This document shows positions 10,751-37,855 of a stretch of DNA of 38,224 nt, piece after piece. The first letter of the stretch is position 1; each line of letters opens with the position of its first letter. The translations under genes and the position numbers were made by a program. Origin of the DNA: Nitrospinota bacterium (GTDB lineage: Bacteria > JADFOP01); contig JADFOP010000016.1 of NCBI GenBank assembly GCA_022562795.1, positions 1 through 38,224 of the forward strand. Direction: 5' to 3'. The notes beneath the pieces are model-generated. The model worked only from the letters and a program-made list of their open reading frames with translations, was not told where the DNA came from and made no database searches.

Positions 10751-11029
10751 GTGGCGGTCAAAATCCGTCTGAAGCGGATGGGCGCAAAGAAAAATCCCAA
10801 GTACCGAGTAGTGGTGGCTGATGTCCGCTCGCCCCGCGACGGGCGGGTCATCGAGGAGCTGGGGACGTATGACCCGATACCCACCCCGCCGGTGGTCAGT
10901 ATCAATGAGCCTCGAGCCCTCTATTGGTTGGGCCAGGGGGCGCGGCCCACGGATAAGGTGGCCAGCCTGCTTAGAGGCGTCGGGCTGCTGAAGAAGTTCC
11001 GTGAAGCCGCCGCCCCGTCGATCGAGTAG
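10751..11029 (+). CDS. rpsP: 30S ribosomal protein S16
   Basis: A small-subunit assembly protein. The family start [30 protein letters not shown] is complete, followed by IEELGTYDP and the [12 protein letters not shown] segment. 92 residues is a normal length. The start is GTG at 10751, with a strong AGGAGGTGA ribosome site about 6 bases upstream. It is first gene of the conserved rpsP-khpA-rimM-trmD-rplS cluster. About 130 bases without a recognisable gene separate it from khpA. Confidence 0.97.
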
Positions 11030-11161
11030 ACTGCGAATCGAGCAAACTGCGAAAGGGAGTAATACGGCACGCGAGACATCCCGCACGTAAGGGTACGCTG
11101 GGAACGAGATGGACGCAGCGTATGACTGACGGCATGGACGGACGTGGCTGTGGAGGGGTCC

Positions 11162-11395
11162 ATGCTCAAAGAGCTCATATACGGCATCGCCAAGGCTTTG
11201 GTGGATCACCCCGAGCTGGTGCAAGTCAATGTGGTCGAAGGAGAGAAGACCACCGTAATTGAGTTGCGCGTGGCTCGAGAGGACCTCGGCAAGGTAATAG
11301 GCCGAGAGGGGCGTACGGCCAGGGCCATTCGGACCATCCTCAATGCAGTTGCGACCAAACTGCGGAGACGGGCCGTCCTAGAGATTCTTGAATGA
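11162..11395 (+). CDS. khpA: KH-domain RNA-binding protein KhpA
   Basis: A 77-residue single type-II KH domain with the GxxG loop in [15 protein letters not shown] near residue 45. KhpA homologues bind RNA, often with KhpB/Jag, and affect cell division and small-RNA stability. I chose the ATG at 11162 because GGAGG (11152-11156) lies 5 bases upstream and the family starts MLKELI. An in-frame GTG at 11144 would add six residues. Its position between rpsP and rimM is widely conserved. Confidence 0.92.
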
Positions 11396-11411
11396 TGAAG
11401 CTCTTCGGCGC

Positions 11412-11948
11412 ATGCGTGCGATGAGTAATTCCTTAATCCTCATTGGCGGAGTGACCCGCGCCCAGGGACTGAAGGGCGCCCTACGGGTGGTGCCGTATCT
11501 AGGGGCGAGTGAGGACTACGGGGCCTTAAGCAGCGTCATACTCATGGCCGAGGACCGGGAGGAGGAGCGCACTGTTCGGGCCTGCCGTGCCCACGGAAAG
11601 GTTCTGATTATGGAGCTGGATGGGGTGGACGACCGCACGGCCGCCGAGTCCTACGTCGGGGCTGGTCTCTACGCCGACCGACGCCAGCTTCGCGACCTTG
11701 AGGCTGGGGAGTTTTACAAGGAGGACCTCATCGAGGCGACCGTCGTGACCGAGGCTGGCAAGCCCATTGGGGCCGTGACCAATTTTATCGCGACGGGCAG
11801 CAACGACGTCCTGGTAGTAAAGGGCGACGGCGAGGAACACCTCATTCCACTTATTCACTCGGTCGTCCGATCGGTCGACCTCGAGTCCCGGACCATAACA
11901 GTCGTCGCGCTTGAGGAGCTCTACGAGGAGCCCACCGAAGTTTCTTAA
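11412..11948 (+). CDS. rimM: 16S rRNA processing protein RimM
   Basis: Assists 30S head maturation by binding S19. The N-terminal domain begins ILIGGVTRAQGLKGALRVVPY, the standard RimM opening. The C-terminal PRC-barrel begins around GEFYKEDLIEATVVTEAGKPIG and ends in the HLIPLIHSVVRSVDLESRTI block. The start is uncertain: ATG at 11412 or 11421, or a TTG at 11388 that would overlap khpA. None has a clear Shine-Dalgarno sequence, so translation may be coupled to khpA, which ends at 11395. It is about 178 residues from 11412. Confidence 0.93.
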   Translation: MRAMSNSLILIGGVTRAQGLKGALRVVPYLGASEDYGALSSVILMAEDREEERTVRACRAHGKVLIMELDGVDDRTAAESYVGAGLYADRRQLRDLEAGEFYKEDLIEATVVTEAGKPIGAVTNFIATGSNDVLVVKGDGEEHLIPLIHSVVRSVDLESRTITVVALEELYEEPTEVS

Positions 11949-11951
11949 TCC

Positions 11952-12695
11952 ATGGAAGTCCACATCGTCACACTTTTCCCGGATCTCTTCGCCTCGCCGC
12001 TTAAGGAGAGCATTCTCGGCAAGGCGATCGATCGGGGCGTTGTGGACGTGGTCGTCCACGATCTTCGCGACCACGCCCAGGACAAGCATCGGACGGCCGA
12101 CGATGCCCCGTACGGCGGCGGGGCCGGAATGGTTCTCAAGCCAGAGCCCATCATTCGGGCTCTCAGGGCCATTGAGGCTGAGGCCGGCCCGGCGACGGTA
12201 GTCCTGCTCACCCCCCAGGGTATTCCCTTCTCCCAGGCGCTGGCCCAGCGATTGAGCAAGGAGGAGCGCCTCGTTTTGCTCTGCGGCCGCTACGAAGGGG
12301 TGGACGAGCGGGTCCGGCTCCATTTTACTGACCTCGAGATCTCCATCGGCGATTACGTGCTCATGGGTGGGGAGATTCCGGCCCTGGTGGTCCTCGATGC
12401 GACAGTGCGTCTGCTGCCGGGTGTCGTTGGCGAGGAGCGATCCATCCAGGAGGACTCCTTCCAGACGGGCCTGCTCGACCATCCCCACTACACGCGCCCG
12501 GCTGAGGCCGAGGGCCATAAGGTGCCCGAGGTGCTCCTTTCCGGCAACCACGAGGCCATCCGACGCTGGAGGCGCAAAGAGAGCCTCCGGCGGACGCGCG
12601 CCCGCCGCCCCGACCTGCTGGAGACGGCCACGCTCACCGACGAAGACGTAGAGCTCCTCGCTGAGATCGAGGCCGAAGAGGCTAGCCCAGAATAA
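11952..12695 (+). CDS. trmD: tRNA (guanine-37-N1) methyltransferase
   Basis: Methylates G37 next to the anticodon, using S-adenosylmethionine, to prevent +1 frameshifting. It is a SPOUT-class trefoil-knot enzyme. The knot sequences LLCGRYEGVDERV and IGDYVLMGGEIPALVVLDATVRLLPGVVG lie near residues 108-160, after the N-terminal VHIVTLFPDLFASPL. The conserved SFQTGLLDHPHYTRP follows, and the C-terminal half carries VLLSGNHEAIRRWR. 247 residues is typical. The ATG is three bases after the rimM stop. Confidence 0.97.
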   Translation: MEVHIVTLFPDLFASPLKESILGKAIDRGVVDVVVHDLRDHAQDKHRTADDAPYGGGAGMVLKPEPIIRALRAIEAEAGPATVVLLTPQGIPFSQALAQRLSKEERLVLLCGRYEGVDERVRLHFTDLEISIGDYVLMGGEIPALVVLDATVRLLPGVVGEERSIQEDSFQTGLLDHPHYTRPAEAEGHKVPEVLLSGNHEAIRRWRRKESLRRTRARRPDLLETATLTDEDVELLAEIEAEEASPE

Positions 12696-12705
12696 AGACC
12701 GGCTG

Positions 12706-12737
12706 AAGGGGAATTTCTGTTGATAATTTTCCCTTTT
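12706..12737 (+). terminator. Weak terminator after trmD
   Basis: AAGGGGAA (12706-12713) can pair with TTTCCCTT (12728-12735, one G-U) around a 14-base loop, and the run of four T ends at 12737. The next gene has its own promoter, which fits partial termination here. Confidence 0.35.
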
Positions 12738-12833
12738 AGGTATCAAATAAGCCCTAAAAATCTCAGATTCCATGACCTGGGAAGTCCTTACTTCAAAAAC
12801 GTTGACTAGTACGGTATCCGGCGGCGGTTATCC

Positions 12834-12862
12834 TTGACAGGCTCGGGGTGGTTGTGTAGACT
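12834..12862 (+). promoter_or_regulatory. Sigma70-type promoter of rplS
   Basis: A consensus TTGACA and TAGACT are 17 bp apart, about 48 bases ahead of the rplS start. This makes rplS separately expressible from the rpsP-trmD unit. Confidence 0.6.
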
Positions 12863-12909
12863 GCGGCGAATTAATTAGAGGCGGGCTACGCCGAGGAAGT
12901 GGAGAAGCC

Positions 12910-13260
12910 GTGTCCTATACCCTGGAATTCCTCGAAAAAGAGCAGATCCGCACCGATCTGCCTCAATTCGCCCCAGGCGACACCGTCCGGGTTCACATGC
13001 GTATCGTTGAGGGGGAGAAGGAGCGGATCCAGATATTCGAGGGCCCTGTCATCGCCCGCCGCGGCGGGGGTGTGCGCGAGAGCTTCACCGTCCGAAAAAT
13101 CTCCTACGGGATTGGGGTGGAGCGCACATTTCCCCTCCACTCTCCAAGGATCGATAAGATCGAGGTGGTCCGCCGGGGGAAGGTCCGCCGTGCGAAACTT
13201 TACTACCTCCGTCAACTGCGGGGCAGGAAGGCCCGGATCAAGGAAAAGGGCCGTCGCTGA
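12910..13260 (+). CDS. rplS: 50S ribosomal protein L19
   Basis: A large-subunit protein at the subunit interface. The 116 residues match the family throughout: [35 protein letters not shown], then [45 protein letters not shown] and a basic C-terminal tail ([12 protein letters not shown]). The start is GTG at 12910; GGAAGTGGAGAAG upstream gives a modest ribosome site. Confidence 0.97.
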
Positions 13261-13292
13261 AAGCCTCGTTGCCTCTCCTTTCAGAATCCTAG

Positions 13293-13928
13293 ATGGACCG
13301 GTTTGAGCGCCAGGCCGCCGAGCGGGGCTTCTCGCTTGTGGCGGGCATAGATGAGGCCGGCCGAGGCCCACTCGCCGGCCCCGTGGTGGCGGCCGCCGTC
13401 ATCCTTCCACCGAAGACGAACCATCCCCTGCTGGTCGATTCCAAGCAGCTTGCTCCCGCCCGGCGCCTCGAGGCCTACGAGTTTATCCTCGCCTACGCCG
13501 TGAGCCTGGGGGTGGGGCTGGTGGATGCGGCCGCTATAGACGATCTCAACATCCTCCGGGCTACGAAGCTCGCAATGGCCCGCGCGCTGGAGGCGATTAC
13601 CGTCTCGCCCGACTATCTTCTGGTCGATGCCATATCCCTGCCCCAAGTTGACCTGCCTCAGGTGCCCCTGGTCAAGGGCGACCGCCGGAGCCTCTCGGTC
13701 GCCGCAGCAAGCATAGTCGCCAAGGTGAGCCGGGATTGGCTCATGGAGACCTACGCGTCGCAATACCCCGGATATGCCTTCGAGAGACATAAAGGCTACC
13801 CCACCAAAGAGCACCGGGCGGCCCTTGCCCGGCACGGGCCGTGCCCAATCCACCGAAAGAGCTTTCGGGGGGTGCGGGAGTTTTTCGAGGAGGGGGCCAG
13901 GCCGCTGAGGCTTTTCAACCCGTCTTGA
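13293..13928 (+). CDS. rnhB: Ribonuclease HII
   Basis: Cleaves the RNA strand in RNA-DNA hybrids and at single ribonucleotides in DNA. The four acidic catalytic residues are present: Asp and Glu in AGIDEAGRGPLAGPV (near residue 20), Asp in LLVDAI (near 112), and Asp in AKVSRDWLM (near 149). The KGYPTKEH and CPIHRKSF stretches near the C-terminus are typical. 211 residues is a normal length. Its place directly after rplS is conserved in many lineages. Confidence 0.96.
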   Translation: MDRFERQAAERGFSLVAGIDEAGRGPLAGPVVAAAVILPPKTNHPLLVDSKQLAPARRLEAYEFILAYAVSLGVGLVDAAAIDDLNILRATKLAMARALEAITVSPDYLLVDAISLPQVDLPQVPLVKGDRRSLSVAAASIVAKVSRDWLMETYASQYPGYAFERHKGYPTKEHRAALARHGPCPIHRKSFRGVREFFEEGARPLRLFNPS

Positions 13929-14021
13929 CGCGGGCGGGCTCTTCTCCATACAGTGCGATAAGATGGTAAGTAACGGGGCGGCTCGCTCGTCTTTCCTTAC
14001 AGATGGCAGGAGGCCCAGCTT

Positions 14022-14783
14022 GTGCGGATGAAGCCCAGCTTCGGCCTGGCGCTTTTGGCGGCCTTGTGGCTCGCAGTGCCGGCCTGGGCGGCAGAGCAGA
14101 CCACGGCGGAGCCCTCTGGGCATATGCTGCTCCTCGATGGGGGTCGCTACCACCTGGGCGACGGCATCTTCAATCGCTACGCCGCCGACGGGTCGCTCTT
14201 GAGCCATGAGGTGGCGGGGTGGAAGTACTCCTTCCCCTTCCGAGTGGGGCGCGATGGCGTGGTCTCAATCATCATCGGAAATGTCATCGGGGTGGACAGC
14301 GGCTCAACCCTCCAGCGCTACTTTAACCGGAAGGCCGGTGGGACCGTCTACCTGGAACGGGTTGAGGATGCCGCCGTGGCCGAGCGGACGAAGGTCGGCC
14401 TCCTGGAGCCCCGCCACAACCACACGAGCTTCCAGTCAGACCCTATCCGCCTGAAGGAAGGCACTTACATGGTGACAGTCGAGAGCAACCCCTACACTCT
14501 CTTCGACCGAGATGACATTCAAATAGAGAGCATCGCCGTTCGAACCGACGATCCGGAGCTCGCCATCGAACCGCTCTGGGCAAGGGGCAAGGTCTACTCC
14601 GGGGGCCTCGATCTCTCCCTCGTTCCCAAGTCCTGGAGGGGGGAGGAGGGCCTCAGCTTGGAGCTCGCCGGACCGACCCGGACCGTTGAGGAGCCGTCCA
14701 TGCCCGCCCCGTCGGAGCGCCGTCGCGGCGCGGAGCTACTGGAGCTCGAGCTTGGGGTCAAAGGGCGGGAGGGCGTTCGATGA
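14022..14783 (+). CDS. Secreted protein of unknown function
   Basis: The 253-residue protein starts with a Sec signal peptide: basic MRMKPSF, hydrophobic GLALLAALWLAV, and likely cleavage after PAWA near residue 23. The mature part has many short beta-strand-like stretches and includes SFPFRVGRDGVVSIIIGNVIGVDSGSTLQRYFN in two separate predicted strands (residues about 68-108). It has no cysteine and no motif I recognise. The GTG at 14022 is preferred to the ATG at 14028 because AGGAGG (14008-14013) is 8 bases upstream of it. Its stop overlaps the yraN start as ATGA, so it is coupled to a nuclease-fold gene, though that alone says nothing of function. A periplasmic or outer-surface location is inferred. 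Confidence 0.75.
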   Translation: MRMKPSFGLALLAALWLAVPAWAAEQTTAEPSGHMLLLDGGRYHLGDGIFNRYAADGSLLSHEVAGWKYSFPFRVGRDGVVSIIIGNVIGVDSGSTLQRYFNRKAGGTVYLERVEDAAVAERTKVGLLEPRHNHTSFQSDPIRLKEGTYMVTVESNPYTLFDRDDIQIESIAVRTDDPELAIEPLWARGKVYSGGLDLSLVPKSWRGEEGLSLELAGPTRTVEEPSMPAPSERRRGAELLELELGVKGREGVR

Positions 14784-15139
14784 CCACCCTGCGGGCCTCC
14801 CTCGGCCGGAGGGGAGAGCGGGTGGCGGCGAGGTTCCTGAGGCGGCGGGGCTACCGCATCCTCCACCGTAACTGGCGCTGCCCTTCCGGGGAGATCGATC
14901 TCGTCTGCGCCGATGGAGCCACGCTCGTCTTCGTCGAGGTCAAAAGCCGCTCGGGCGGCGGCCTCGTCCCGCCCGAGGCCGGGGTGGGCCGCCTCAAGCG
15001 CAGGAAACTCGAACGCCTGGCACTACACTACTTGGCCGCCCGCGCCCTGGTGGAGGTGGACTGGCGCTTCGACGTGGTTTCCGTGACCCTGGGGCGGTGG
15101 CGACGGCCCGCCGTCCGCATTTTTCAGGGAGCCTTCTAG
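14780..15139 (+). CDS. yraN: YraN/UPF0102 family endonuclease-like protein
   Basis: A small protein (119 residues) with the restriction-endonuclease-like fold core. RRGYRILHRNWRCPSGEIDLVCADG and LVFVEVKSRSGG give the E-x(n)-D-x(n)-ExK metal-site pattern of the PD-(D/E)XK superfamily. Its biological role is not well established; association with DNA uptake and recombination genes has been suggested for the family. The rnhB-yraN neighbourhood is common. Translation is coupled to the upstream secreted protein. Confidence 0.9.
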   Translation: MTTLRASLGRRGERVAARFLRRRGYRILHRNWRCPSGEIDLVCADGATLVFVEVKSRSGGGLVPPEAGVGRLKRRKLERLALHYLAARALVEVDWRFDVVSVTLGRWRRPAVRIFQGAF

Positions 15140-15151
15140 TCTCTTTTTCCC

Positions 15152-15180
15152 TTGACAACTAACCGGCCTTCCCGTATACA
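15152..15180 (+). promoter_or_regulatory. Strong sigma70-type promoter of rplM-rpsI
   Basis: A consensus TTGACA and TATACA are exactly 17 bp apart. The predicted start near 15187 gives a leader of about 30 bases before rplM. Confidence 0.75.
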
Positions 15181-15217
15181 ACACTTTCATATTTAGCCGC
15201 CTTTATAGGGGTTTTTC

Positions 15218-15652
15218 ATGCGGACCGTTTCGGCAAGGAAAGAGGATATAGAGCGGAAGTGGCACCTGGTGGATGCCGAGGGGAAAGTCCTTGGGCGGAT
15301 GGCTAGCCAGGTGGCCACCATCCTCAGGGGCAAGCACAAGCCAATCTACACTCCTCACGTGGACTGCGGCGACTTCGTCGTCATTGTCAACGCCGGGAAG
15401 GTGCGCCTTACGGGCAAAAAACTCCTCAATAAGACTTACTACTTTCATTCCAACTATCCTGGGGGCTTAAAGAGCGTTCAGGCAGGTAAGTTGCGGAAAG
15501 AGAAACCCGTGCGGATGGTCGAGCTCGCGGTAAGGCGGATGCTGCCAAAGACGAAGCTGGGCAGGGCGATGTTCAAAAAACTCAAGGTCTACGCATCGGC
15601 TCATCATCCCCACGAGGCTCAAGGCCCCGAGCCCCTCGAGGTCGAGGCCTGA
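15218..15652 (+). CDS. rplM: 50S ribosomal protein L13
   Basis: An early large-subunit assembly protein. The 144 residues show [45 protein letters not shown], the family core, and then the [22 protein letters not shown] block. The C-terminus ends [14 protein letters not shown], slightly extended and acidic. It forms a two-gene operon with rpsI, which begins 13 bases later. Confidence 0.97.
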
Positions 15653-15664
15653 GAGGAGGTCGTA

Positions 15665-16057
15665 ATGGAGCGGCCCAGGTACTACGCTACCGGCAAGCGC
15701 AAGACCTCGATTGCCAGGGTGTGGCTCACACCAGGCGAAGGCGCCATTACAGTCAACCGGATGCCCATTGATGAGTATTTCGACCGGGAGACGAGCAAGA
15801 TGGTCGTGCGTCAGCCATTCGAGGTGACCGGCACCCTTGGGGACTACGATGCTGTCGTCACAGTCCGCGGGGGTGGCAAAAACGGGCAGGCGGGGGCCAT
15901 CAAGCACGGGATCACCAAAGCGCTGGTCGAGGCGAACGCCGATCTGCGCGGGAAGCTTAAGCAGGCGGGCTTTCTGACTCGGGATGCCAGGATAAAAGAG
16001 CGAAAGAAGTACGGTCAGCCGGGGGCCAGGAAGAAGTTCCAGTACTCCAAGCGTTAA
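15665..16057 (+). CDS. rpsI: 30S ribosomal protein S9
   Basis: A small-subunit protein whose C-terminal tail reaches the P-site tRNA. The 130 residues include [21 protein letters not shown] near the start, [19 protein letters not shown] in the middle, and the invariant C-terminal [19 protein letters not shown] upstream is a strong ribosome site. It is followed at once by a strong terminator. Confidence 0.97.
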
Positions 16058-16070
16058 TGATCCTCCGTCC

Positions 16071-16102
16071 GACCGAAGGCCCGTAACCTTCGGTCTTTTT
16101 TT
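16071..16102 (+). terminator. Rho-independent terminator of rplM-rpsI
   Basis: A perfect 9-bp stem, GACCGAAGG (16071-16079) and CCTTCGGTC (16087-16095), with a 7-base loop, is followed by seven T. It lies 13 bases after the rpsI stop and only 25 bases before argC. I see no promoter between it and argC, so argC may depend on read-through or on a start signal I cannot recognise. Confidence 0.9.
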
Positions 16103-16127
16103 GTATCCTGGCGGTGAGAGGTGAGCG

Positions 16128-17168
16128 ATGATTCCTTGTGGCGTAGCCGGTGCCAGTGGCTACACAGGTTCGGAGTTGCTGCGCCTGTTGAGCCGACACC
16201 CACGGCTCGAAGCGGTGCGGGTCACGGCCGACCGCCATGCTGGCAAGTCCCTGGAGGAGGTTTTTCCCTTCCTCAGGGGCCAGGTGGACCTGACCCTCGA
16301 GAAGCTCGACCCACGCTCCATGGCCGAGGACTGTCGAGTGGTCTTTTGCGCTCTTCCCCATACGACCTCCATGGGCGTGGTCCCCTCCTTGGTGGAAGCC
16401 GGGTGTCTGGTGGTGGACCTTTCGGCCGATTTCCGCTTCCGGGACCCTGCCGTCTATCAAGCCTGGTACGGAGTAAGCCACACTGCGCCGGAGCTCTGTC
16501 AACAGGCCGTCTACGGCCTGCCGGAGCTTCACCGCGACTCCATCAGGGGCTCGAGCCTCGTAGCCAATCCGGGCTGTTATCCAACTAGCGTGGTGCTGGC
16601 CGTCGCCCCGCTGATGAGCGCGGGCCTCATCGAGCCGGGCAGCGTGATTGCCGACAGCAAATCAGGCGCCTCGGGGGCCGGACGGCGAGAGGAGCTGGCC
16701 TTGAGCTTCTCCGAGCTCAGCGAGGATTTTAGGGCCTATCAGGTCGCGACCCACCGCCATACCCCGGAGATGGAGCAGGAGCTCTCGGCCCTGGCCGGCC
16801 AGCCCATCACATGCTCATTCACCCCTCATCTCGTCCCCATGACCCGGGGCATTCTCTCGACAGTCTATGCCAGCCTGGTGGGGGAGCCGACCGAAGAGGC
16901 TCTCCAAGCTGTAATGGAAGAGGCCTACTCTGGTGAGCCCTTTATCCGCATCTTGCCGCCGGGGGAGCTTCCGGCCACCGGGAGACTACGGGGGACCAAC
17001 ATGTGCGAGCTGGCCCTTAGGCTTGATAAGCGGACCGGTCGGGTCATTGTTATTTCGGCCCTCGACAATCTGGGCAAGGGAGCAAGCGGCCTGGCCATTC
17101 AGAACTCCAACATCATGCTAGAGCTAGATGAGACCGCCGGCCTAACAGGGCCTGGCCTCTACCCGTAA
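16128..17168 (+). CDS. argC: N-acetyl-gamma-glutamyl-phosphate reductase
   Basis: Third step of arginine synthesis: NADPH reduces N-acetylglutamyl phosphate to the semialdehyde. The N-terminal nucleotide fold is GVAGASGYTGSELLRLL. The catalytic cysteine is in NPGCYPTS near residue 148, and HTPEMEQEL and TPHLVPMTRGILSTVYA follow, as in the ArgC family. The protein has 346 residues. It is paired with argJ 15 bases downstream. The rpsI-argC-argJ-rpsB order occurs in several deep-branching Gram-negative groups. Confidence 0.96.
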   Translation: MIPCGVAGASGYTGSELLRLLSRHPRLEAVRVTADRHAGKSLEEVFPFLRGQVDLTLEKLDPRSMAEDCRVVFCALPHTTSMGVVPSLVEAGCLVVDLSADFRFRDPAVYQAWYGVSHTAPELCQQAVYGLPELHRDSIRGSSLVANPGCYPTSVVLAVAPLMSAGLIEPGSVIADSKSGASGAGRREELALSFSELSEDFRAYQVATHRHTPEMEQELSALAGQPITCSFTPHLVPMTRGILSTVYASLVGEPTEEALQAVMEEAYSGEPFIRILPPGELPATGRLRGTNMCELALRLDKRTGRVIVISALDNLGKGASGLAIQNSNIMLELDETAGLTGPGLYP

Positions 17169-17182
17169 AGGTTGGCAGCGAT

Positions 17183-18388
17183 ATGGTGCGCCACGTCTAT
17201 GGGGGACTGTCGGGGGTTCATGGCATCAGGGCCGCCGCCTGCCGTGTCGGTATAAAGGCCGAAGGGCTTGACCTGGCCTTGATTCTCTGCGACCCACCAG
17301 CCGTGGCGGCGGGCGTCTTTACATCCAACCGGCTACAGGCCGCACCCGTTCGCGTGAGCAGGGAGCACTTGGAACGGGGCCGCTGCCGGGCGCTTCTCAT
17401 CAATAGCGGGAACGCAAACGCCGGCACGGGAGCCGTCGGGCTGGAGGACGCCCATGCCTGCGCCTCCGCCGTAGCGGCGGAGGTCGGGTGCCCTAGAGAG
17501 GAGGTTCTCCTCATGTCAACCGGCCTCATCGGCGTGCGCCTGCCTCTTCAGCCCATTGTTGAGGCCGTTCCAGGCCTTGTAGCATCGGTGTCACCGGCCG
17601 GATGCGAGGCGGCCGCCGAAGCCATCTTAACTACCGACACCCGAACCAAGGCGGCTGCCGTGGAATGGCTCCACGACGGCCAGACCGTCCGGCTGGGCGG
17701 GATGGCTAAAGGCGCCGGAATGATTGCTCCCCACATGGCAACCATGTTGGCCGTCGTTGCCACCGATATCGCGGCCGAGGCCGAGGTGCTCCAGGCGGCC
17801 CTAAGAGGAGCAGTGGATAGGACCTTCAACCGGATTACCGTCGACGGGGACATGTCAACCAACGATTCGGTCTTGCTGCTGGCTACGGGCCGAGCGCCCG
17901 CGGCTTCGCTTGCCGCCACAGGGTCTCAAGCCGGAAAGTTCCAGGTAGCCCTGGAGACAGTTTGCGGAGAGCTGGCCCGCCAAATTGTCCTCGACGGCGA
18001 GGGGGCCACGCGGCTTGCGGCCATTACCGTGGCGGGGGCCGCCAGCGAGCAACAGGCTGCTCGCGTAGCCCAGGCGGTCTCTCGTTCTCTGTTGGTCAAG
18101 ACTGCCCTCTTTGGAGGCGACCCCAATTGGGGCCGCGTGCTTGCCGCTGTGGGGGCCGCTGGGGAGGAGATTGTGCCCGAGCGGCTCGATATCACCTATG
18201 GGGGGGTGGCAGTATTTCAAGCAGGCCGCCCGGTGGAGCCCATTCCGGTGGAGGCTTTGAACAAGGCTGCCGCCGAAAGGGAGATATCCATAGCGGTGGA
18301 CCTCCACCTCGGCTCCTTCGAGGCCACCGTTTTGACCACCGACCTCTCCCTCGACTACGTCCGTCTCAACGCCGAGTATACGACGTAG
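17183..18388 (+). CDS. argJ: Bifunctional ornithine acetyltransferase / N-acetylglutamate synthase
   Basis: Recycles the acetyl group from N-acetylornithine to glutamate and, in bifunctional forms, also uses acetyl-CoA. The precursor cleaves itself before the nucleophilic threonine in GMIAPHMATMLAVVATD (Thr near residue 189, cleavage between Ala and Thr). The usual Asn before MATML is His here, a modest variant. C-terminal signatures include VKTALFGGDPNWGRVLAAVG and LGSFEATVLTTDLSLDYVRLNAEYTT. Length is 401 residues. ArgJ completes a cyclic acetyl route, so a separate ArgE/ArgA is not needed. Confidence 0.96.
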   Translation: MVRHVYGGLSGVHGIRAAACRVGIKAEGLDLALILCDPPAVAAGVFTSNRLQAAPVRVSREHLERGRCRALLINSGNANAGTGAVGLEDAHACASAVAAEVGCPREEVLLMSTGLIGVRLPLQPIVEAVPGLVASVSPAGCEAAAEAILTTDTRTKAAAVEWLHDGQTVRLGGMAKGAGMIAPHMATMLAVVATDIAAEAEVLQAALRGAVDRTFNRITVDGDMSTNDSVLLLATGRAPAASLAATGSQAGKFQVALETVCGELARQIVLDGEGATRLAAITVAGAASEQQAARVAQAVSRSLLVKTALFGGDPNWGRVLAAVGAAGEEIVPERLDITYGGVAVFQAGRPVEPIPVEALNKAAAEREISIAVDLHLGSFEATVLTTDLSLDYVRLNAEYTT

Positions 18389-18414
18389 GCTCAACGAGCA
18401 TATCCCCTCGCCTA

Positions 18415-18447
18415 TTGCGCCGGTCCCATCTCCTATGGTAATAATAT
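18415..18447 (+). promoter_or_regulatory. Possible promoter of rpsB
   Basis: An AT-rich -10 region (TAATAATATAC, from 18439) stands out in the 202-base gap between argJ and rpsB. The best -35 is only TTGCGC (18415-18420), 18 bp upstream of TAATAA. If used, the rpsB leader would be about 140 bases long. Confidence 0.35.
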
Positions 18448-18463
18448 ACAATTGACCTGCGGA

Positions 18464-18477
18464 AGGGCCTAGGCCCT
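18464..18477. promoter_or_regulatory. Perfect 14-bp palindrome in the rpsB leader
   Basis: AGGGCCTAGGCCCT is self-complementary and lies between the candidate promoter and rpsB. The long leader of an S2-EF-Ts operon is a known place for autoregulation by S2. I cannot match it to a described leader motif. Confidence 0.35.
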
Positions 18478-18590
18478 CTCCAGGCTGAATGACACACGCT
18501 CTCCAGATGACGCCGAGGGGTGCCCCGTGGGGTATCGGCGCCAGGTGAAGGGAGCGGAGGAACGAACCCCAACTGTAAGGAGGCCCACCT

Positions 18591-19490
18591 GTGTCAGTCG
18601 TCACCATCAAGCAGTTGCTAGAGGCTGGCTGCCACTTCGGCCACCAGACGAATAGGTGGAACCCGAAGATGCGCCGATTCATTTACGGATCCCGGAACGG
18701 CATCTACATAATCGATTTGCAACAGACGCTGAAGCACTTCCAGGTGGCGTACGACTTCGCCCGTGACCTGGCTGCCCAGGGTGGCCGGATCCTCTTCGTC
18801 GGAACAAAGAGGCAGGCAGAGGATGCCATCCAGGAGGAAGCCGTCCGCTGTGGACAGTTCTTTGTTACCTCCCGCTGGCTTGGAGGCACGCTTACGAACT
18901 TTAAGACTATTAAGAAGCGGATTCGGCGGCTGCGGGAATTAGAAGATCTGAAGGCCGCCGGCCACTTTGAGCTTCTGACAAAAAAAGATGCGGCAGGCTT
19001 GGATCGCGAACGTCAGCGGCTGGAGAAATTTCTGGGTGGCATCAAGGAAATGGAGGAGGTGCCAGAGGCGGTATTCATCGTAGACCCACGCCGAGAGAAG
19101 ATCGCCGTCAACGAGGCCAGGAGGCTTGGAATTCCTACCATCGCCATGGTGGATACAAACTGCGACCCAGACGATATATCCCACCTCATCCCATGCAATG
19201 ACGACGCAATTCGAGCCATCCGGCTGGTCACGAGCAAGATTGCCGACGCGGCCTTGGAGGGGCTCGACCATAGGGCGGCTGTCGCCGCAAAGGAGGCAGA
19301 GGAGGCTAAGGCGACGGCGGAGGTTGAGGCTGAGCCCGAGGCTGTTGTGGCCGCGCCTGAGGAGACCGTTTCCGAGGAGCCTGCCCCATCGGATGAGGAG
19401 CCCGTCGAGCCGCCAAGCGAAGTCGCCGTCGCGGAGGCCGCCGAAGCGGCCCTGGAGCCTGAACCCACCGCGGAACCTGATTCGAAGTAG
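18591..19490 (+). CDS. rpsB: 30S ribosomal protein S2, with extended acidic tail
   Basis: The core (residues about 1-230) is standard S2: [105 protein letters not shown]. The remaining roughly 65 residues are almost only Ala, Glu, Pro, Val and Ser, and are likely disordered. Total length is 299 residues against about 240 in E. coli. The start is GTG with TAAGGAGG 7 bases upstream. It heads the rpsB-tsf-pyrH-frr-uppS-cdsA-dxr run. Confidence 0.97.
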
Positions 19491-27132: not shown

Positions 27133-27615
27133 ATGATGGCCGAGCCCGGCTTAGAGGAGCTTCGGAAAGCCCGCGAGGCCGCCCACCGCCTTCTGGCCCG
27201 CCGGGCCCGCTCGGTGGCCGAGATAAAATCCAAACTCGCCGAGCGGAGATTTTCTCCCGCCGTCATCCGCCGGACCGTCGAGCGCCTCGCCTCAGTAGGC
27301 TACCTAGACGACACCGCCTTCGCCCGCTCCCACGCCCGCTACCTGATGGAGGCCCGTCCCATGGGCCGCCGCCGCCTGAGCTGGGAGTTATCCCGGAAGG
27401 GGATCGAGAAAGGCCTCGTCGAAGAAGCGGTAGAGGAGGTCTGGGCCGGACGATCCGAGCGGGAGGTCGCAAGAGAGGTGGCGATGCGCCGCCTCGAGGC
27501 CTACCGCGGGCTCGACGAGACGACCGTCCGGCGCCGCCTCAAGGGCTACCTCGAGCGCCGCGGCTTTCCCCACGGCGACATCGTCACCATCCTCCGCGAG
27601 ATTTCGTCCCTGTAA
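27133..27615 (+). CDS. recX: Regulatory protein RecX
   Basis: Binds RecA filaments and modulates recombination. The 160 residues form the three-helix repeats of RecX: RLLARRARSVAEIKSKLAERRFS, LASVGYLDDTAFARSHARYLM, GRRRLSWELSRKGIEKGLVEEA, and a final arginine-rich block. It starts with ATG (27133 or 27136), 37 bases after recA. Its last 61 codons are present again, slightly diverged, at 28595-28779. In relatives alaS often follows recX; here an inserted toxin-antitoxin module follows. Confidence 0.94.
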   Translation: MMAEPGLEELRKAREAAHRLLARRARSVAEIKSKLAERRFSPAVIRRTVERLASVGYLDDTAFARSHARYLMEARPMGRRRLSWELSRKGIEKGLVEEAVEEVWAGRSEREVAREVAMRRLEAYRGLDETTVRRRLKGYLERRGFPHGDIVTILREISSL

Positions 27616-27637
27616 GGTCCCGCCAGCCTTAAATAGC

Positions 27638-28538: not shown

Positions 28539-28594
28539 GGAAGAGGGGTGAAATTGGTGAATTTTTAAGTAATAATCCGACCTCCCAGGCCGTC

Positions 28595-28779
28595 GAGGAG
28601 GTCTGGGCCGGACGATCCGATCGGGAGGTCGCAAGGGAGGTTGCGCTCCGCCGCCTTGAGGCCTACCGCGGGCTCGACGAGACGACCGTCCGGCGCCGTC
28701 TGAAGGGCTACCTCGACCGCCGCGGCTTTCCCCACGGCGACATCGTCACCATCTTCCGCTAAATCTCGTCCTTTTAAGG
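28595..28779 (+). pseudogene. Detached copy of the recX 3' end
   Basis: These 185 bases align with 27433-27617 without gaps at a constant offset of 1162 bases. I count about 15 differences (roughly 92 percent identity). The protein reading of the fragment (VEEVWAGRSDREVAREVALR, RLEAYRGLDETTVRRRLKGY, LDRRGFPHGDIVTIFR) is in frame and still RecX-like. The last codons differ, and a stop comes earlier. It has no recX 5' part or start of its own. The toxin-antitoxin module lies between the two copies. Confidence 0.9.
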
Positions 28780-30664: not shown

Positions 30665-30973
30665 CTAGTGCACCGCCTCGCTGTGGACCCTCCCCGCAAG
30701 AGGAATTCCCGCAGTCATCTCCCTGTAATGAGCTCTGATCGGGACCAGGAGTTGAATATTTGCGATCTCGGCGGAGTGGATGAACGGACCCTTATCCTCT
30801 CTCAGTTGGGTGGCGAGGGGCTTGCAAACAAGCGAAGCGAAGACGACCTCGGCATTCTCAAAGCCTATCTCCACGTAGTGGATGAGGAAGTGATCCTCCC
30901 ACTCCATGCCCTCAAGCGAGGCAATGCAAAAGGGACAGACCTTGAGATGTGGTTGATAGCTAACAGTTTTCAC
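30665..30973 (-). CDS. Small protein with a C2H2-type zinc-finger pattern
   Basis: A 102-residue protein that I do not recognise. Its N-terminus has C13-x2-C16-x11-H28-x3-H32 (VCPFCIASLEGMEWEDHF, then LIHY), the spacing of a C2H2 finger, which is uncommon in bacteria outside the Ros/MucR family. The rest has one further Cys (near residue 50) and no known motif. The GTG start (30973) overlaps the stop of the upstream cysteine-rich gene as GTGA, and the pattern of paired Cys and His supports a real gene. A frame on the opposite strand covers the same bases but lacks such features. It is third gene of a minus-strand set of three. Confidence 0.6.
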   Translation of the reverse strand: MKTVSYQPHLKVCPFCIASLEGMEWEDHFLIHYVEIGFENAEVVFASLVCKPLATQLREDKGPFIHSAEIANIQLLVPIRAHYREMTAGIPLAGRVHSEAVH

Positions 30974-31587
30974 TTTTTCAAAAACCCATACCTAGGCTGT
31001 CCGGTCCTACCGCTTGTCCTGGGACCGCTGGAGGACTCATCCCTGACGGGGGGGTCGGGCTGGTTCTCTCGGGCCTTTTCGGCCGGCCGGACCGTCATTT
31101 CGTACGGAATGCCGCAGTATACGTATCGGCCAGCTTCCATGACCAGCTCGCCTCGGTGCCATCGGCAACCCTTGCAGGTTGTCTCAAGAGGCACGAAGCG
31201 GTTCTCCTGCGCCAGGGTTGATTCCAACGGGCAGTGGACGAGCTCCACCTCCCAGCGCTTGACTATATCGACGGCGATGGGGTGGTTGCAGATGGGCCCC
31301 AGGTCCTCCGTCCAGCCGCTTCGGAAGGAGCAGCTGTAGCAGAGCTCGATCGGCACCCGCCCGTCGGGCACGTTCGGGTCTTGGACCTCAAACAGGTAAA
31401 AGGGGCAGGTGACGACCGCCCGGCCCGCCATTCGCAGAGCCCAGCAGTCCTCGCAGACGTCGTCCTGCTCGGGGATGGGCTTGGTCAGCTCGCAGAGGCG
31501 GCAGAGCTTGTCGGCGAGGTAGCGGATCTCTTCGCCTTCCTCCTCCAGGACCGGCAGCGGGATTGTGGCTGACTCAGCGCGACCCAT
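30970..31587 (-). CDS. Cysteine-rich protein with two tandem Cys4 modules
   Basis: A 205-residue protein that I do not recognise. An N-terminal C29xxC32-x12-C45xxC48 knuckle is followed by two similar modules. Module A is C61-P-x20-24-C83xxC86-x13-C100; module B is C119-P-x18-C138xxC141-x16-C158. Both share C-P-[FL] at the start and P-[IL]-E just before the CxxC pair, so they look like an internal duplication. Twelve cysteines in all suggest three metal sites (zinc or iron-sulphur). The last 40 residues are polar and Pro/Arg-rich, probably disordered. There is no signal peptide. The ATG at 31587 shares its A with the stop of the upstream gene (TGATG), so I reject the longer frame that starts at 31752. 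Confidence 0.72.
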   Translation of the reverse strand: MGRAESATIPLPVLEEEGEEIRYLADKLCRLCELTKPIPEQDDVCEDCWALRMAGRAVVTCPFYLFEVQDPNVPDGRVPIELCYSCSFRSGWTEDLGPICNHPIAVDIVKRWEVELVHCPLESTLAQENRFVPLETTCKGCRWHRGELVMEAGRYVYCGIPYEMTVRPAEKARENQPDPPVRDESSSGPRTSGRTGQPRYGFLKK

Positions 31588-31805
31588 CAGGCGGTTCCTA
31601 CCACTTCGCACTTTGGGCACTCTACGCACGGCATGGCTCGTTCCTCGGCCCTGGTGATGCCGCAGAATGAGCACCATACGGAGAGGCGGCGCATGGAGGC
31701 GAAGTGGTCCTCGTCGATCGAGGCCCACTCGCGGTGGATGGGCTCGCTGCATGCCGAGCAGCGGGTCACGCCCGCGATGTCGTCGTAGATGATAGGCGTT
31801 GCCAC
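31587..31805 (-). CDS. Small zinc-ribbon-like protein
   Basis: A 72-residue protein with C16xxC19, C45xxC48 and C60xxC63xxC66 (RCSACSEPIHREW; VWCSFCGITRAEE; MPCVECPKCEVVG). The first two pairs, about 25 residues apart, fit a zinc ribbon or treble-clef fold; the last three Cys could add a second site. I prefer the GTG at 31805 because GGAGG (31815-31811) is 5 bases upstream; a GTG at 31817 would add four residues. Its stop overlaps the start of the next gene. No function can be assigned, though DNA, RNA or protein binding is the usual role of such folds. Confidence 0.68.
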   Translation of the reverse strand: MATPIIYDDIAGVTRCSACSEPIHREWASIDEDHFASMRRLSVWCSFCGITRAEERAMPCVECPKCEVVGTA

Positions 31806-32107
31806 GACGTCCTCCACTGGGCGTCGGGAGCGACCAGCCGGTCGGCCCCGTTTAACTTCAATTGATTATTATGCAAAATTCGTGCCTCTAGTTTGGTTCT
31901 GCGAAACATGATGTTGGAGAATGTTATAAAATCGGTGTAAGCGATTGATTAAGCTAGGATAGCGGGGATGGTCGGCCTCGTTGAGGGTGTCAATATATTG
32001 ACGATAAGATGCACCCTTTGTTCATGTTATGGCGCATAATGTAACATCCGTGATGCATGGGTCATTTTCCGGAAATTTCCGAATGTGGAACAGAATCCCT
32101 CGCCGGC
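31806..32107. other. Intergenic region upstream of the cysteine-rich operon
   Basis: No gene is supported. The stretch is AT-rich compared with its surroundings, with possible minus-strand -10 boxes (CATAAT, 31873-31868) but no matching -35. It holds the palindrome at 31989-32002. Confidence 0.5.
31989..32002. promoter_or_regulatory. Perfect 14-bp palindrome, candidate operator
   Basis: GTCAATATATTGAC is self-complementary and contains TTGAC on each strand. It lies upstream of the cysteine-rich operon by about 185 bases. The size suits a dimeric helix-turn-helix regulator, but no regulator gene of that kind is adjacent. Confidence 0.3.
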
Positions 32108-32165
32108 GCCGCCTCCTGACCTTTGTACTGAAGCTGGTAGAGGGTATGGGAGCGGCCCCGGCGGG
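32108..32165 (-). pseudogene. Detached copy of the 3' end of an ABC exporter gene
   Basis: These 58 bases match 32769-32826, the 3' end of the intact exporter gene, with six differences and no gaps (constant offset 661). On the minus strand it still reads HTLYQLQYKGQEA, the exporter C-terminus. No upstream part of a second exporter gene is present. The small secreted-protein gene lies between the two copies. Confidence 0.75.
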
Positions 32166-32230
32166 GCCGGGCAGACGGAGTCAGCCCGGCCGGGGATGAG
32201 GTAGGCTAAGGAATGATGACGAGGGTGTTC

Positions 32231-32743: not shown

Positions 32744-34567
32744 TCACCGAGCAACCTCCCGGCCTGATGCCGCCTCCTGACCTTTGTACTGGAGCTGGTA
32801 GAGGGTGTGGTATAAGCCCCGGCGGGCGAGGAGCTCCTGGTGGGTTCCCTCCTCCCTCAGGCGGCCCTTGTGGAGCACGAGAATGCGGTCGGCCCCCTGG
32901 ATGGTCGAGAGCCGATGGGCGATGACGATGGCGGTCCGGCCTTCGAGCAGCACCTGGAGTGCCTCCTGGATGAGGCCCTCTGTCTCGGTATCTACGCTCG
33001 AGGTGGCCTCGTCGAGCACCAGGATGGGGCGGTCGAAGGCCAGGGCCCGGGCGAAGGCGATGAGCTGGCGCTGGCCCGCAGAGAGGTTGCGGCCCCGCTC
33101 GGCAACGGGCATTCTCAACCCGGAGGGGTGGGCGTGGACGAAGCGGCCCGCCCTGGAGGCCTCCACGGCGCGGGCGACCGCCTCGGTGTTAAGGCCCTCG
33201 CCGAGCCGGACATTTTCCTCCACAGTCCCGGCGAAGAGGAAGACGTCTTGGAGGACCAGGGCGATGCGGCGGCGCAGCTGCTCGATCTCAAGGGAGCGGA
33301 TGTCCACGCCGTCGAGGAGGATGCGGCCCCGCCCGACCTCGTAGAAGCGCTCCAGCAGCTTGATGATCGTGGTCTTGCCCGCCCCCGTGGCTCCGACGAT
33401 TGCGACCGTCTCTCCCGGCTCGGCCCGGAAGGATAGGTCGCGCAAGACCCACTCATCCTCGCCGTCGTAGCTGAACCAGACACCCTCGAAAGCCACTGCT
33501 CCGCCGCGCTCGGGCGCGCGGGCGGGCAGACGGGCCGGCTCGGTCGGTGAAGCCACTGTGGGGGTGGCGTCCAGGAGGGTGAAGGTCCGCTCAAGGGAGG
33601 CCATTGCCTGCTGCATGATGGTGAACTTGGCCGAAAGGTCCCGGATGGGCAGGAAAAACCGCTGTACGTACTCGAAAAAGGCCACCAGCACGCCGAAGGT
33701 AAGGGCCCCTCGGAGAATCTCGCCGCCGCCGTACCAGACGAGCATGGCCAGGGTGACCGAGGCGAGGGTATCGACGACGGTGTAGAAGGAAGCGTCGTAT
33801 ATGTTGGAGCGATGGTTGGCCCGGAAGTGCTCGTCGTTGATGGCTCGGAAGGCCTCGAAATTGCGCCCCTCTCGGCCGAAGAGCTGAACCACCTTCATGC
33901 CGATAATGTTCTCCTGGAGGTATGCGTTGAGTCGCGCCACGAGCAGCCGGATGGCGCGGAAGGCATCCCTGATGCGGGCCCGGAAGAAGAGGGCGATGAG
34001 GGCCAGCGGGGGCAGCACCGTGTAGGTCACCAGGGCGAGCTTGGGCGCGATGAGCCACAGCACCACTACGATTCCCAAGAGCATCGCAACGTCGGCCACG
34101 ATGGCCACTATGCCGGAGGCGAACATATCGCTCACCGCCTCGGTATCGCTGGTCAGACGCGTGACCAGCCTTCCGACCGGGTTTCGGTCGAAGAAGCGGC
34201 CGTCCTGGCGCTGGAGGTGGGCGAAGAGCTCCCGTCTTAGGTCGAGGACCACCCGCTGGCCAGCCAGGTTCATCCAGTAGAGCTGGCCGAAGCGGGCGGC
34301 GAACTCCAATACGATGGCGGCGAGGAAGGCCGCCAGCACGAGGCCGATCCCGGAAAGGGCGCCAGGTACGATGTGATTATCGATGACGACCTTGATGAGG
34401 TAGGGCTGGGCCAGCCCGGCCAGGGTCGAAACGGGCATGAGGAGTAGCGAGAAGAGCAGCCACCGGCGGTGGGGACGAACGAAGGGCCAGAGCCTTCGGA
34501 CGAGCCTGGCGTCGTAGGCCCTTCCGAGGATTGCCTCCTCCCGGAATGGATCTGGTCGCATGGTCAT
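32744..34567 (-). CDS. ABC exporter half-transporter, second subunit (consensus ATP site)
   Basis: A 607-residue type I exporter half: six membrane helices (about residues 30-320) and an ATPase domain. Walker A is VGATGAGKTTIIKL near residue 390. The signature is the unusual LSAGQRQ near 493. Walker B is LVLDEATSS near 515 with the catalytic Glu, and the switch His is in IAHRLST. Start ATG at 34567 (MTMRPDP), 55 bases after the first subunit's stop; an open frame continuing upstream overlaps that gene and is rejected. With the upstream gene it should form a heterodimer of the BmrCD/TM287-288 kind that exports lipids, drugs or peptides. The substrate is unknown. Part of its 3' end recurs at 32108-32165. 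Confidence 0.92.
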   Translation of the reverse strand: MTMRPDPFREEAILGRAYDARLVRRLWPFVRPHRRWLLFSLLLMPVSTLAGLAQPYLIKVVIDNHIVPGALSGIGLVLAAFLAAIVLEFAARFGQLYWMNLAGQRVVLDLRRELFAHLQRQDGRFFDRNPVGRLVTRLTSDTEAVSDMFASGIVAIVADVAMLLGIVVVLWLIAPKLALVTYTVLPPLALIALFFRARIRDAFRAIRLLVARLNAYLQENIIGMKVVQLFGREGRNFEAFRAINDEHFRANHRSNIYDASFYTVVDTLASVTLAMLVWYGGGEILRGALTFGVLVAFFEYVQRFFLPIRDLSAKFTIMQQAMASLERTFTLLDATPTVASPTEPARLPARAPERGGAVAFEGVWFSYDGEDEWVLRDLSFRAEPGETVAIVGATGAGKTTIIKLLERFYEVGRGRILLDGVDIRSLEIEQLRRRIALVLQDVFLFAGTVEENVRLGEGLNTEAVARAVEASRAGRFVHAHPSGLRMPVAERGRNLSAGQRQLIAFARALAFDRPILVLDEATSSVDTETEGLIQEALQVLLEGRTAIVIAHRLSTIQGADRILVLHKGRLREEGTHQELLARRGLYHTLYQLQYKGQEAASGREVAR

Positions 34568-37013: not shown

Positions 37014-37805
37014 CTACTTCAAAATCAAAATGGTGATGTGGGCGTCGAGGAGAGTGTGGGGCTCGTCGGTGTCGTAGGTGAAGGAGAGCACGCCATCGCC
37101 GCTTGCGCCGGCGAATTTCTTTGTGCCGCCCGTGATCTTAAACACGGTGGTGACGGTGTTGTGCGTATCGGTGTGGGTGAAATCGAACACGCCCGCCGGC
37201 GGATGGCCGCCTACCGTGGTGAATACCTTCACCTCACAGTTGTAGCCGCCGAGGATTATGCCGTTGATGGTCGCGCCGTTTTTCTTGGTGATCTTGATGA
37301 TTCCGGTGAAGGTGCGAGTGCCGACATCAAGACCACTGGAACTAAAGTTGTCTCCCTTCCCGTCGGCGGCAAACGGGAACTCATCGCCTGGTATTAGGGT
37401 TAGCGGAGCGGTTACATTTTCTGTGCTCACGCCGGCGTGGGTGTGGATTCGGACCAGGGTTCTGGGGTTATAGCTGGTGTATGCGAGGGCGCATGGTCCT
37501 GCTGGGTCAACTCCGCCGTCCAGCGCGTAGGAGTTAAAAGTCCACGCGGCGCTCTGCTCGACGGTGGCCCTACCGATGCCCCCGATCCGCCCCCTGAATT
37601 TGGTTTCGCCGCTATCCTCGAACACAGGGGCACCGGAGAAGTCGCCAGTGCGGTTATCGTAATGATGGATCAGCCAGATTTCATTTTTAGGGGCCTTGAG
37701 CCGGCCGAACTTGCGCTTCGGCTTGGCACTGGCTGGGGTGGTGGTAACAACACCAAAGGCCACCACAAGGACCGCTACGGCTAATAAAGTTGCCAGTCTT
37801 CTCAT
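37014..37805 (-). CDS. Secreted protein with a C-terminal FAGAxGxG motif
   Basis: The 263-residue protein has a Sec signal peptide: MRRLATLLAVAVLVVAFGVV, with cleavage after PASA near residue 27. The mature part is threonine- and glycine-rich and predicted beta-rich. Near the C-terminus ITGGTKKFAGASGDGVLSF resembles the 'GTGxFxGAxGxG' motif of small secreted beta-barrel proteins (allene-oxide-cyclase-like or DUF3224-like). No catalytic residues can be named. The ATG at 37805 has AAAGGAGGAAGG just upstream; the GTG nine codons earlier is unlikely. Its leader is very long and structured (see 37806-38209), suggesting regulated expression. Confidence 0.78.
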   Translation of the reverse strand: MRRLATLLAVAVLVVAFGVVTTTPASAKPKRKFGRLKAPKNEIWLIHHYDNRTGDFSGAPVFEDSGETKFRGRIGGIGRATVEQSAAWTFNSYALDGGVDPAGPCALAYTSYNPRTLVRIHTHAGVSTENVTAPLTLIPGDEFPFAADGKGDNFSSSGLDVGTRTFTGIIKITKKNGATINGIILGGYNCEVKVFTTVGGHPPAGVFDFTHTDTHNTVTTVFKITGGTKKFAGASGDGVLSFTYDTDEPHTLLDAHITILILK

Positions 37806-37831
37806 AACCTTCCTCCTTTCTGTCCGCGCCA

Positions 37832-37855
37832 AGCCGTATGCGCGTTCCTACGGCT
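37832..37855. promoter_or_regulatory. Hairpin just upstream of the secreted-protein gene
   Basis: AGCCGTA (37832-37838) and TACGGCT (37849-37855) pair perfectly. A second imperfect hairpin around GGTCCTAC-CCTCC/GGAGG-ACTAGGTCC lies at about 37867-37893. Both would fold in the leader RNA near the ribosome site. Confidence 0.4.

Follow-up and report, generated by a model that had tools for sequence, protein, structure and literature searches.

What are the three tightly packed genes for small cysteine-rich proteins at positions 30665 to 31805 of this DNA, and where do they come from? The window, i.e., the whole stretch that was analyzed, is contig C16 (38,224 nt) of a 2.15-Mb assembly, and only three genomes of its phylum are present in the searched set. 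We compared it with a genome of the same genus, Nitrospinae bacterium AH_259_B05_G02_I21 (85% complete), referred to below as the congener. The comparison leads us to favor, with some reservation, the reading that the cluster is a chromosomal three-gene cassette whose relatives include an accessory cassette carried by Mu-like phages of the same genus.

Layout and coding evidence of the cluster

All three genes lie on the minus strand and encode proteins of 72, 205 and 102 aa. Gene 1 (31587..31805; 7 Cys) has a GTG start with GGAGG 5-6 nt ahead of it. Gene 2 (30970..31587; 12 Cys) starts with ATG and shares 1 nt with gene 1 in a TGATG overlap, and gene 3 (30665..30973) starts with GTG in a 4-nt GTGA overlap with gene 2. 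The intergenic stretch upstream of gene 1 (31806..32230) is the presumed site of the operon promoter; no consensus promoter was found there.

Codon scores were trained on the clear genes of the window. In each of the three regions the named frame was the best of six, with 0.159, 0.195 and 0.158 bits/codon for genes 1, 2 and 3, respectively, and GC3 values of 0.82, 0.81 and 0.67. The three overlapping minus-strand ORFs of the original prediction were confirmed at their coordinates. The scores fall at the low end of the range of the training genes. A long antisense ORF overlapping the cluster (30668-31339) scored -0.03, and a short antisense ORF within gene 2 (31234-31572) reached 0.175. Given this last value and the low-end scores, genes 2 and 3 cannot be established from codon scores by themselves. 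Since composition alone is insufficient, the coding case rests on conservation and on the overlaps between the genes. For gene 1, conservation in the congener settles that it is a genuine gene.

We compared the three proteins with the family libraries. Nothing in Pfam or NCBIfam exceeded the curated cut-off, and nothing in PHROGs or PADLOC was convincing. The best PHROGs match of gene 1 was phrog_37054 (E 0.005, part of the protein only) and its best PADLOC match was PDC-M14A (E 0.0069, 14.8 bits, partial); genes 2 and 3 had no PADLOC match. As both candidates cover only part of gene 1, they were rejected as its family and regarded as generic matches to zinc ribbons. As judged by the PADLOC models, none of the three genes belongs to a known anti-phage defence system. 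The proposal that this is an operon of small cysteine-rich proteins unrecognized by the family libraries held, as Pfam, PHROGs, NCBIfam and PADLOC gave no above-cut-off or full-length match.

Gene 1 on the chromosome and in a Mu-like phage

From position 31590 onward, the window is matched by a contig of the congener, C488 (JALLOF010000053.1), across the gene of a small exported protein and both ABC transporter genes. C488 carries an ortholog of gene 1 that is 69% identical and occupies the same chromosomal place. The two orthologs differ at 13, 13 and 23 first, second and third codon positions, respectively, i.e., most often at third positions. The dN was 0.22 and the dS 0.52, giving a dN/dS of 0.43 by NG86; the YN00 estimate was 0.10. 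These data show that gene 1 has been on the chromosome since before the split of the two species and that it is under constraint. C488 breaks off immediately ahead of the stop codon of gene 1, at the junction where the start of gene 2 would be expected. We found no continuation of C488 by its end sequence, and genes 2 and 3 were not found elsewhere in the 85% complete congener genome.

Gene 1 had been read as a zinc ribbon with seven cysteines. Across the three proteins compared, C16, C19, C45, C48 and C60 were invariant, and Cys63 and Cys66 were not conserved in all of them. The conserved pattern is CxxC-x25-CxxC plus C60, together with W27, E54 and R56. The two CxxC pairs and one further cysteine of the earlier motif therefore stand, and C63 and C66 were wrongly counted in it. 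From this pattern, gene 1 probably binds zinc as a zinc ribbon. An AlphaFold model from three sequences consisted mostly of beta strands and was of moderate confidence (pLDDT 69). Compared with the PDB, the model had no significant fold match; the zinc domains of NrdR and ZPR1 appeared at an E of about 1, among unrelated ones. A gene 1 profile found no match among PDB sequences. An IMG/VR locus (L044) was rejected as a relative because no sensible gene is present at that site.

A second relative of gene 1 was found in the congener on a 25-kb contig, C177 (JALLOF010000025.1). It is 39-41% identical to the chromosomal copies and was detected from a single sequence at an E of 3.1e-9. C177 carries the genes of a Mu-like phage: Portal_Mu (3.8e-114), the Mu gpT capsid protein (6.5e-67), a protease, Gp27, a terminase, GemA and an M15 endolysin. 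Gene 1 is significantly similar to both its chromosomal and its Mu-like phage relatives, and the conserved residues are kept in them. The title coverage is 259x for C177 and 26x for C488; a replicating phage would account for this, as might amplification bias.

The phage relative of gene 1 is the first gene of an undescribed three-gene cassette. It ends in GCCTGATGG, which overlaps the start of the middle gene; GCCTGATGG is also found at the gene 1/gene 2 junction of the window. The PF18780 repeat occurs four times in the middle protein, and a CxxC-x13-CxxC finger lies at its C terminus. The middle gene ends in ATGA and overlaps the gene of a protein of 118 aa in which GEQLINCPFC occurs close to the N terminus. 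We call this a CPF protein; it has a CPFC...H...C pattern like that of gene 3. The gene order and the overlap types (TGATG, then RTGA, with GTGA in the window) match between the phage cassette and the cluster. On sequence grounds, gene 1 and the gene that opens the phage cassette are homologs, and the two cassettes have the same architecture. This link to phages had been overlooked in the original prediction. The cassettes differ in the middle gene, which in the phage encodes the homing-endonuclease-associated repeat PF18780 and is unrelated to gene 2, and in that the phage cassette is embedded in a phage. The cluster of the window is not located among phage genes. No phage structural gene was found near it, and its neighbors are a quinone-oxidoreductase-like gene, the small exported protein gene and the ABC transporter genes.

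The CPF family, gene 3 and the orphan gene 2

The CPF family has the pattern CPFC-x11-H-x21-C, with CCHC ligands. C177 holds two CPF proteins, the second further along the contig. A profile (A3) built from these two proteins and gene 3 found two members that had not been used to build it. One is at 13478-13777 of contig C41 of the window's own genome (1.7e-29), in a Mu-like prophage; the other is at 7173-7508 of contig C88 of the congener (3.1e-21), in a seemingly ordinary chromosomal stretch. Of the four clear CPF copies, three are thus carried by Mu-like phage contigs, and two lie directly behind a PF18780 gene.

The left part of the prophage on C41 covers 11023-19304 (locus L140). Its genes encode an S24 repressor, a CII-like protein, a PF18780/zinc-finger protein, the CPF protein, Gp27 and a terminase, and the PF18780/zinc-finger gene directly precedes the CPF gene, as on C177. 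This prophage is without gene 1. We also scanned viral sequences by phage terminase, and none of the 80 loci had relatives of gene 1, 2 or 3. The gene 1 and CPF families were found neither in any genome searched beyond this genus nor in phage records, and tblastn against phages and plasmids gave nothing significant.

The likeness of gene 3 to the CPF proteins was first noticed by eye and then tested. Gene 3 having been part of A3, the CPF profile was rebuilt without it. Against this profile gene 3 scored 13.4 bits and ranked first of about 23,000 ORF segments from outside the CPF family, although its E of 0.064 is not significant for a search of this size. In 20,000 plain shuffles this score was never reached. 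It was reached by 0.015% of the shuffles when Cys and His were fixed, and by 0.56% (P = 0.0056) when CPFC and all Cys and His were fixed. With a CPF profile of three members the score of gene 3 fell to 5.8 bits, and hhalign of gene 3 with CPF gave a P of 1.2e-4 and a probability of 56%. C13, C16, H28 and C50 of gene 3 align with the CPF ligands, and His32 has no counterpart. Gene 3 probably belongs to the CPF family as a divergent member, by a match that is partly driven by the CPFC/His/Cys pattern; its position in the conserved CPF slot raises this assignment.

This relationship bears on the C2H2-type finger that had been seen in gene 3. The C-x2-C-x11-H-x3-H of gene 3 resembles a classical C2H2 zinc finger, but the second His is absent from the probable relatives, whose ligands are C, C, H and C. 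No zf-C2H2 match was obtained. If gene 3 is related to CPF, the C2H2 reading is wrong, and the finger was probably misread. The original prediction had also looked to homologues that preserve the Cys/His pattern; those of gene 1 keep the Cys pattern, and those of gene 3 probably do likewise.

Gene 2 is an orphan. We found no homologue in 386 genomes across the domain or among viral contigs, genome contigs, phages and plasmids, no match in a sequence search of the PDB, and no match to PF18780. A hit in one genome (G182; E 2e-4) was rejected, as the frame contains a stop and overlaps a kinase/regulator region. The cysteines are laid out as CxxC-x12-CxxC (29, 32, 45 and 48), C61...C83xxC86...C100 and C119...C138xxC141...C158. 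The twelve cysteines of the proposed knuckle and two tandem modules are therefore present. The two later modules are alike in Cys spacing only; their sequence similarity was not above that of shuffles (P = 0.13), so an internal tandem duplication is unsupported. Kinship of gene 2 with the middle protein of the phage was likewise rejected, since the two have only CxxC pairs in common (P 0.7-0.9 in Cys-fixed shuffles). A single-sequence structure model was uninformative (pLDDT 37).

Could the common gene order be a coincidence among packed small Cys-containing genes, with only gene 1 related to phages and genes 2 and 3 being local orphans? The failure of every search to find a homologue of gene 2 is consistent with this, as is the similarity of gene 3, which is weak and largely pattern-driven. 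Against it, gene 3 beats shuffles in which CPFC and every Cys and His are kept, and it lies in exactly the slot of the phage CPF gene. We regard a coincidence as somewhat unlikely. Gene 1, and probably gene 3, represent unnamed families common to the genus and its Mu-like phages. The cluster is a genuine set of genes from undescribed families, restricted to its lineage, and not a sequence artefact. On present evidence, it is not a categorically new system.

Origin and putative role of the cassette

We infer that the transfer went from a phage to the chromosome and not the reverse. The reverse would make genes 1 and 3 host genes captured by Mu-like phages, and the chromosomal operon the original, with a host function in regulation or related to RNA. 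The constraint on gene 1 and its shared chromosomal position in the two species agree with a host origin, and so do the identities, 39-41% between chromosomal and phage copies vs. 69% between the two chromosomal ones, and the CPF copy on the non-phage stretch of the congener. Both families are absent from the searched genomes outside the genus, however, so that there is no older host lineage, and Mu-like phage contigs account for three of the four clear CPF copies, with a PF18780 gene immediately before two of them. Taken together, a host origin appears rather unlikely.

A decaying prophage remnant without present function would be lineage-restricted, as the cluster is, and the duplicated gene ends flanking the region show past rearrangement. 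The three frames are intact, however, and the dN/dS of gene 1 between the species (0.43 by NG86, 0.10 by YN00) argues against decay, which makes this explanation quite improbable. A metallothionein-like or metallochaperone operon, as suggested by the high Cys content and by the earlier proposal of metal handling, is highly improbable and unsupported, since the cysteines form paired CxxC structural zinc sites rather than clusters, two of the seven in gene 1 are not conserved, and the neighboring genes include none with an evident role in metal transport or metal regulation.

In the favored reading, a cassette related to that of the Mu-like phages, the three genes would be co-translated, and the phage counterpart would be an accessory cassette of the early region. 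Each protein may fold round one or more zinc ions. Together, the products might work on nucleic acid; by binding DNA or RNA they would tune phage or host gene expression, much as small zinc proteins of phages, e.g., Mu Com, act on mRNA. The best hint that makes such a role plausible is the DNA-binding-repeat protein in the middle slot of the phage cassette; taken by itself, the nucleic-acid mechanism is a tentative proposal. The middle gene would be an exchangeable slot, holding a Cys-rich orphan here and a DNA-binding-repeat/zinc-finger protein in phages.

Com of phage Mu is a zinc-finger translational activator of mom that acts on mRNA. It is also a small phage zinc protein with four cysteines, similar in size to gene 1 (62 aa, CCCC; PMC6483171). 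The two differ in that the zinc module of Com is N-terminal and its C-terminal tail is disordered. A profile search of gene 1 against the Com family gave no Com match among hits up to an E of 10, and no mom gene was noticed beside any copy.

An extension of the favored reading is a small modular system that Mu-like phages have in common with their hosts, in which the zinc-ribbon first gene and the CCHC third gene are fixed and the middle gene, which gives specificity, can be exchanged. The chromosomal version would block or control superinfecting Mu-like phages by competing for the same nucleic-acid targets. We consider this proposal improbable.

A cluster without a database match became explainable through the phage contigs of a congener, the gene order and the style of overlap. 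These nameless genes are now placed in a testable setting: in a lineage that is uncultured and poorly sampled, they are host-chromosome relatives of accessory genes that Mu-like phages carry. A comparison of cassettes could reveal the role of the conserved outer genes, provided that the middle slot is exchangeable. The families are small, so the wider interest is moderate.

Several minor observations were made in the window. A 58-bp, 90% identical copy of the 3' end of an ABC transporter gene (32108-32165 vs. 32769-32826) lies downstream of the small exported protein gene, within the intergenic stretch ahead of gene 1; none was seen in the intergenic region of the congener. The 3' end of recX is duplicated (27427-27617 and 28589-28779; 91% over 191 bp), the second copy being about 1.16 kb downstream. 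An HTH gene between the two copies matches another contig of the congener (C444), and the stretch between them looks inserted or rearranged. ARAGORN called a 90-nt tRNA-Ala(tgc) at 37067-37156 on the plus strand, inside an opposite-strand ORF of an exported protein (37014-37832), and the call is probably false. At the contig end (10-1026), a gene like those of REP-associated transposases (410-874) is flanked by several short repeats of about 32-38 bp, some direct and some inverted.
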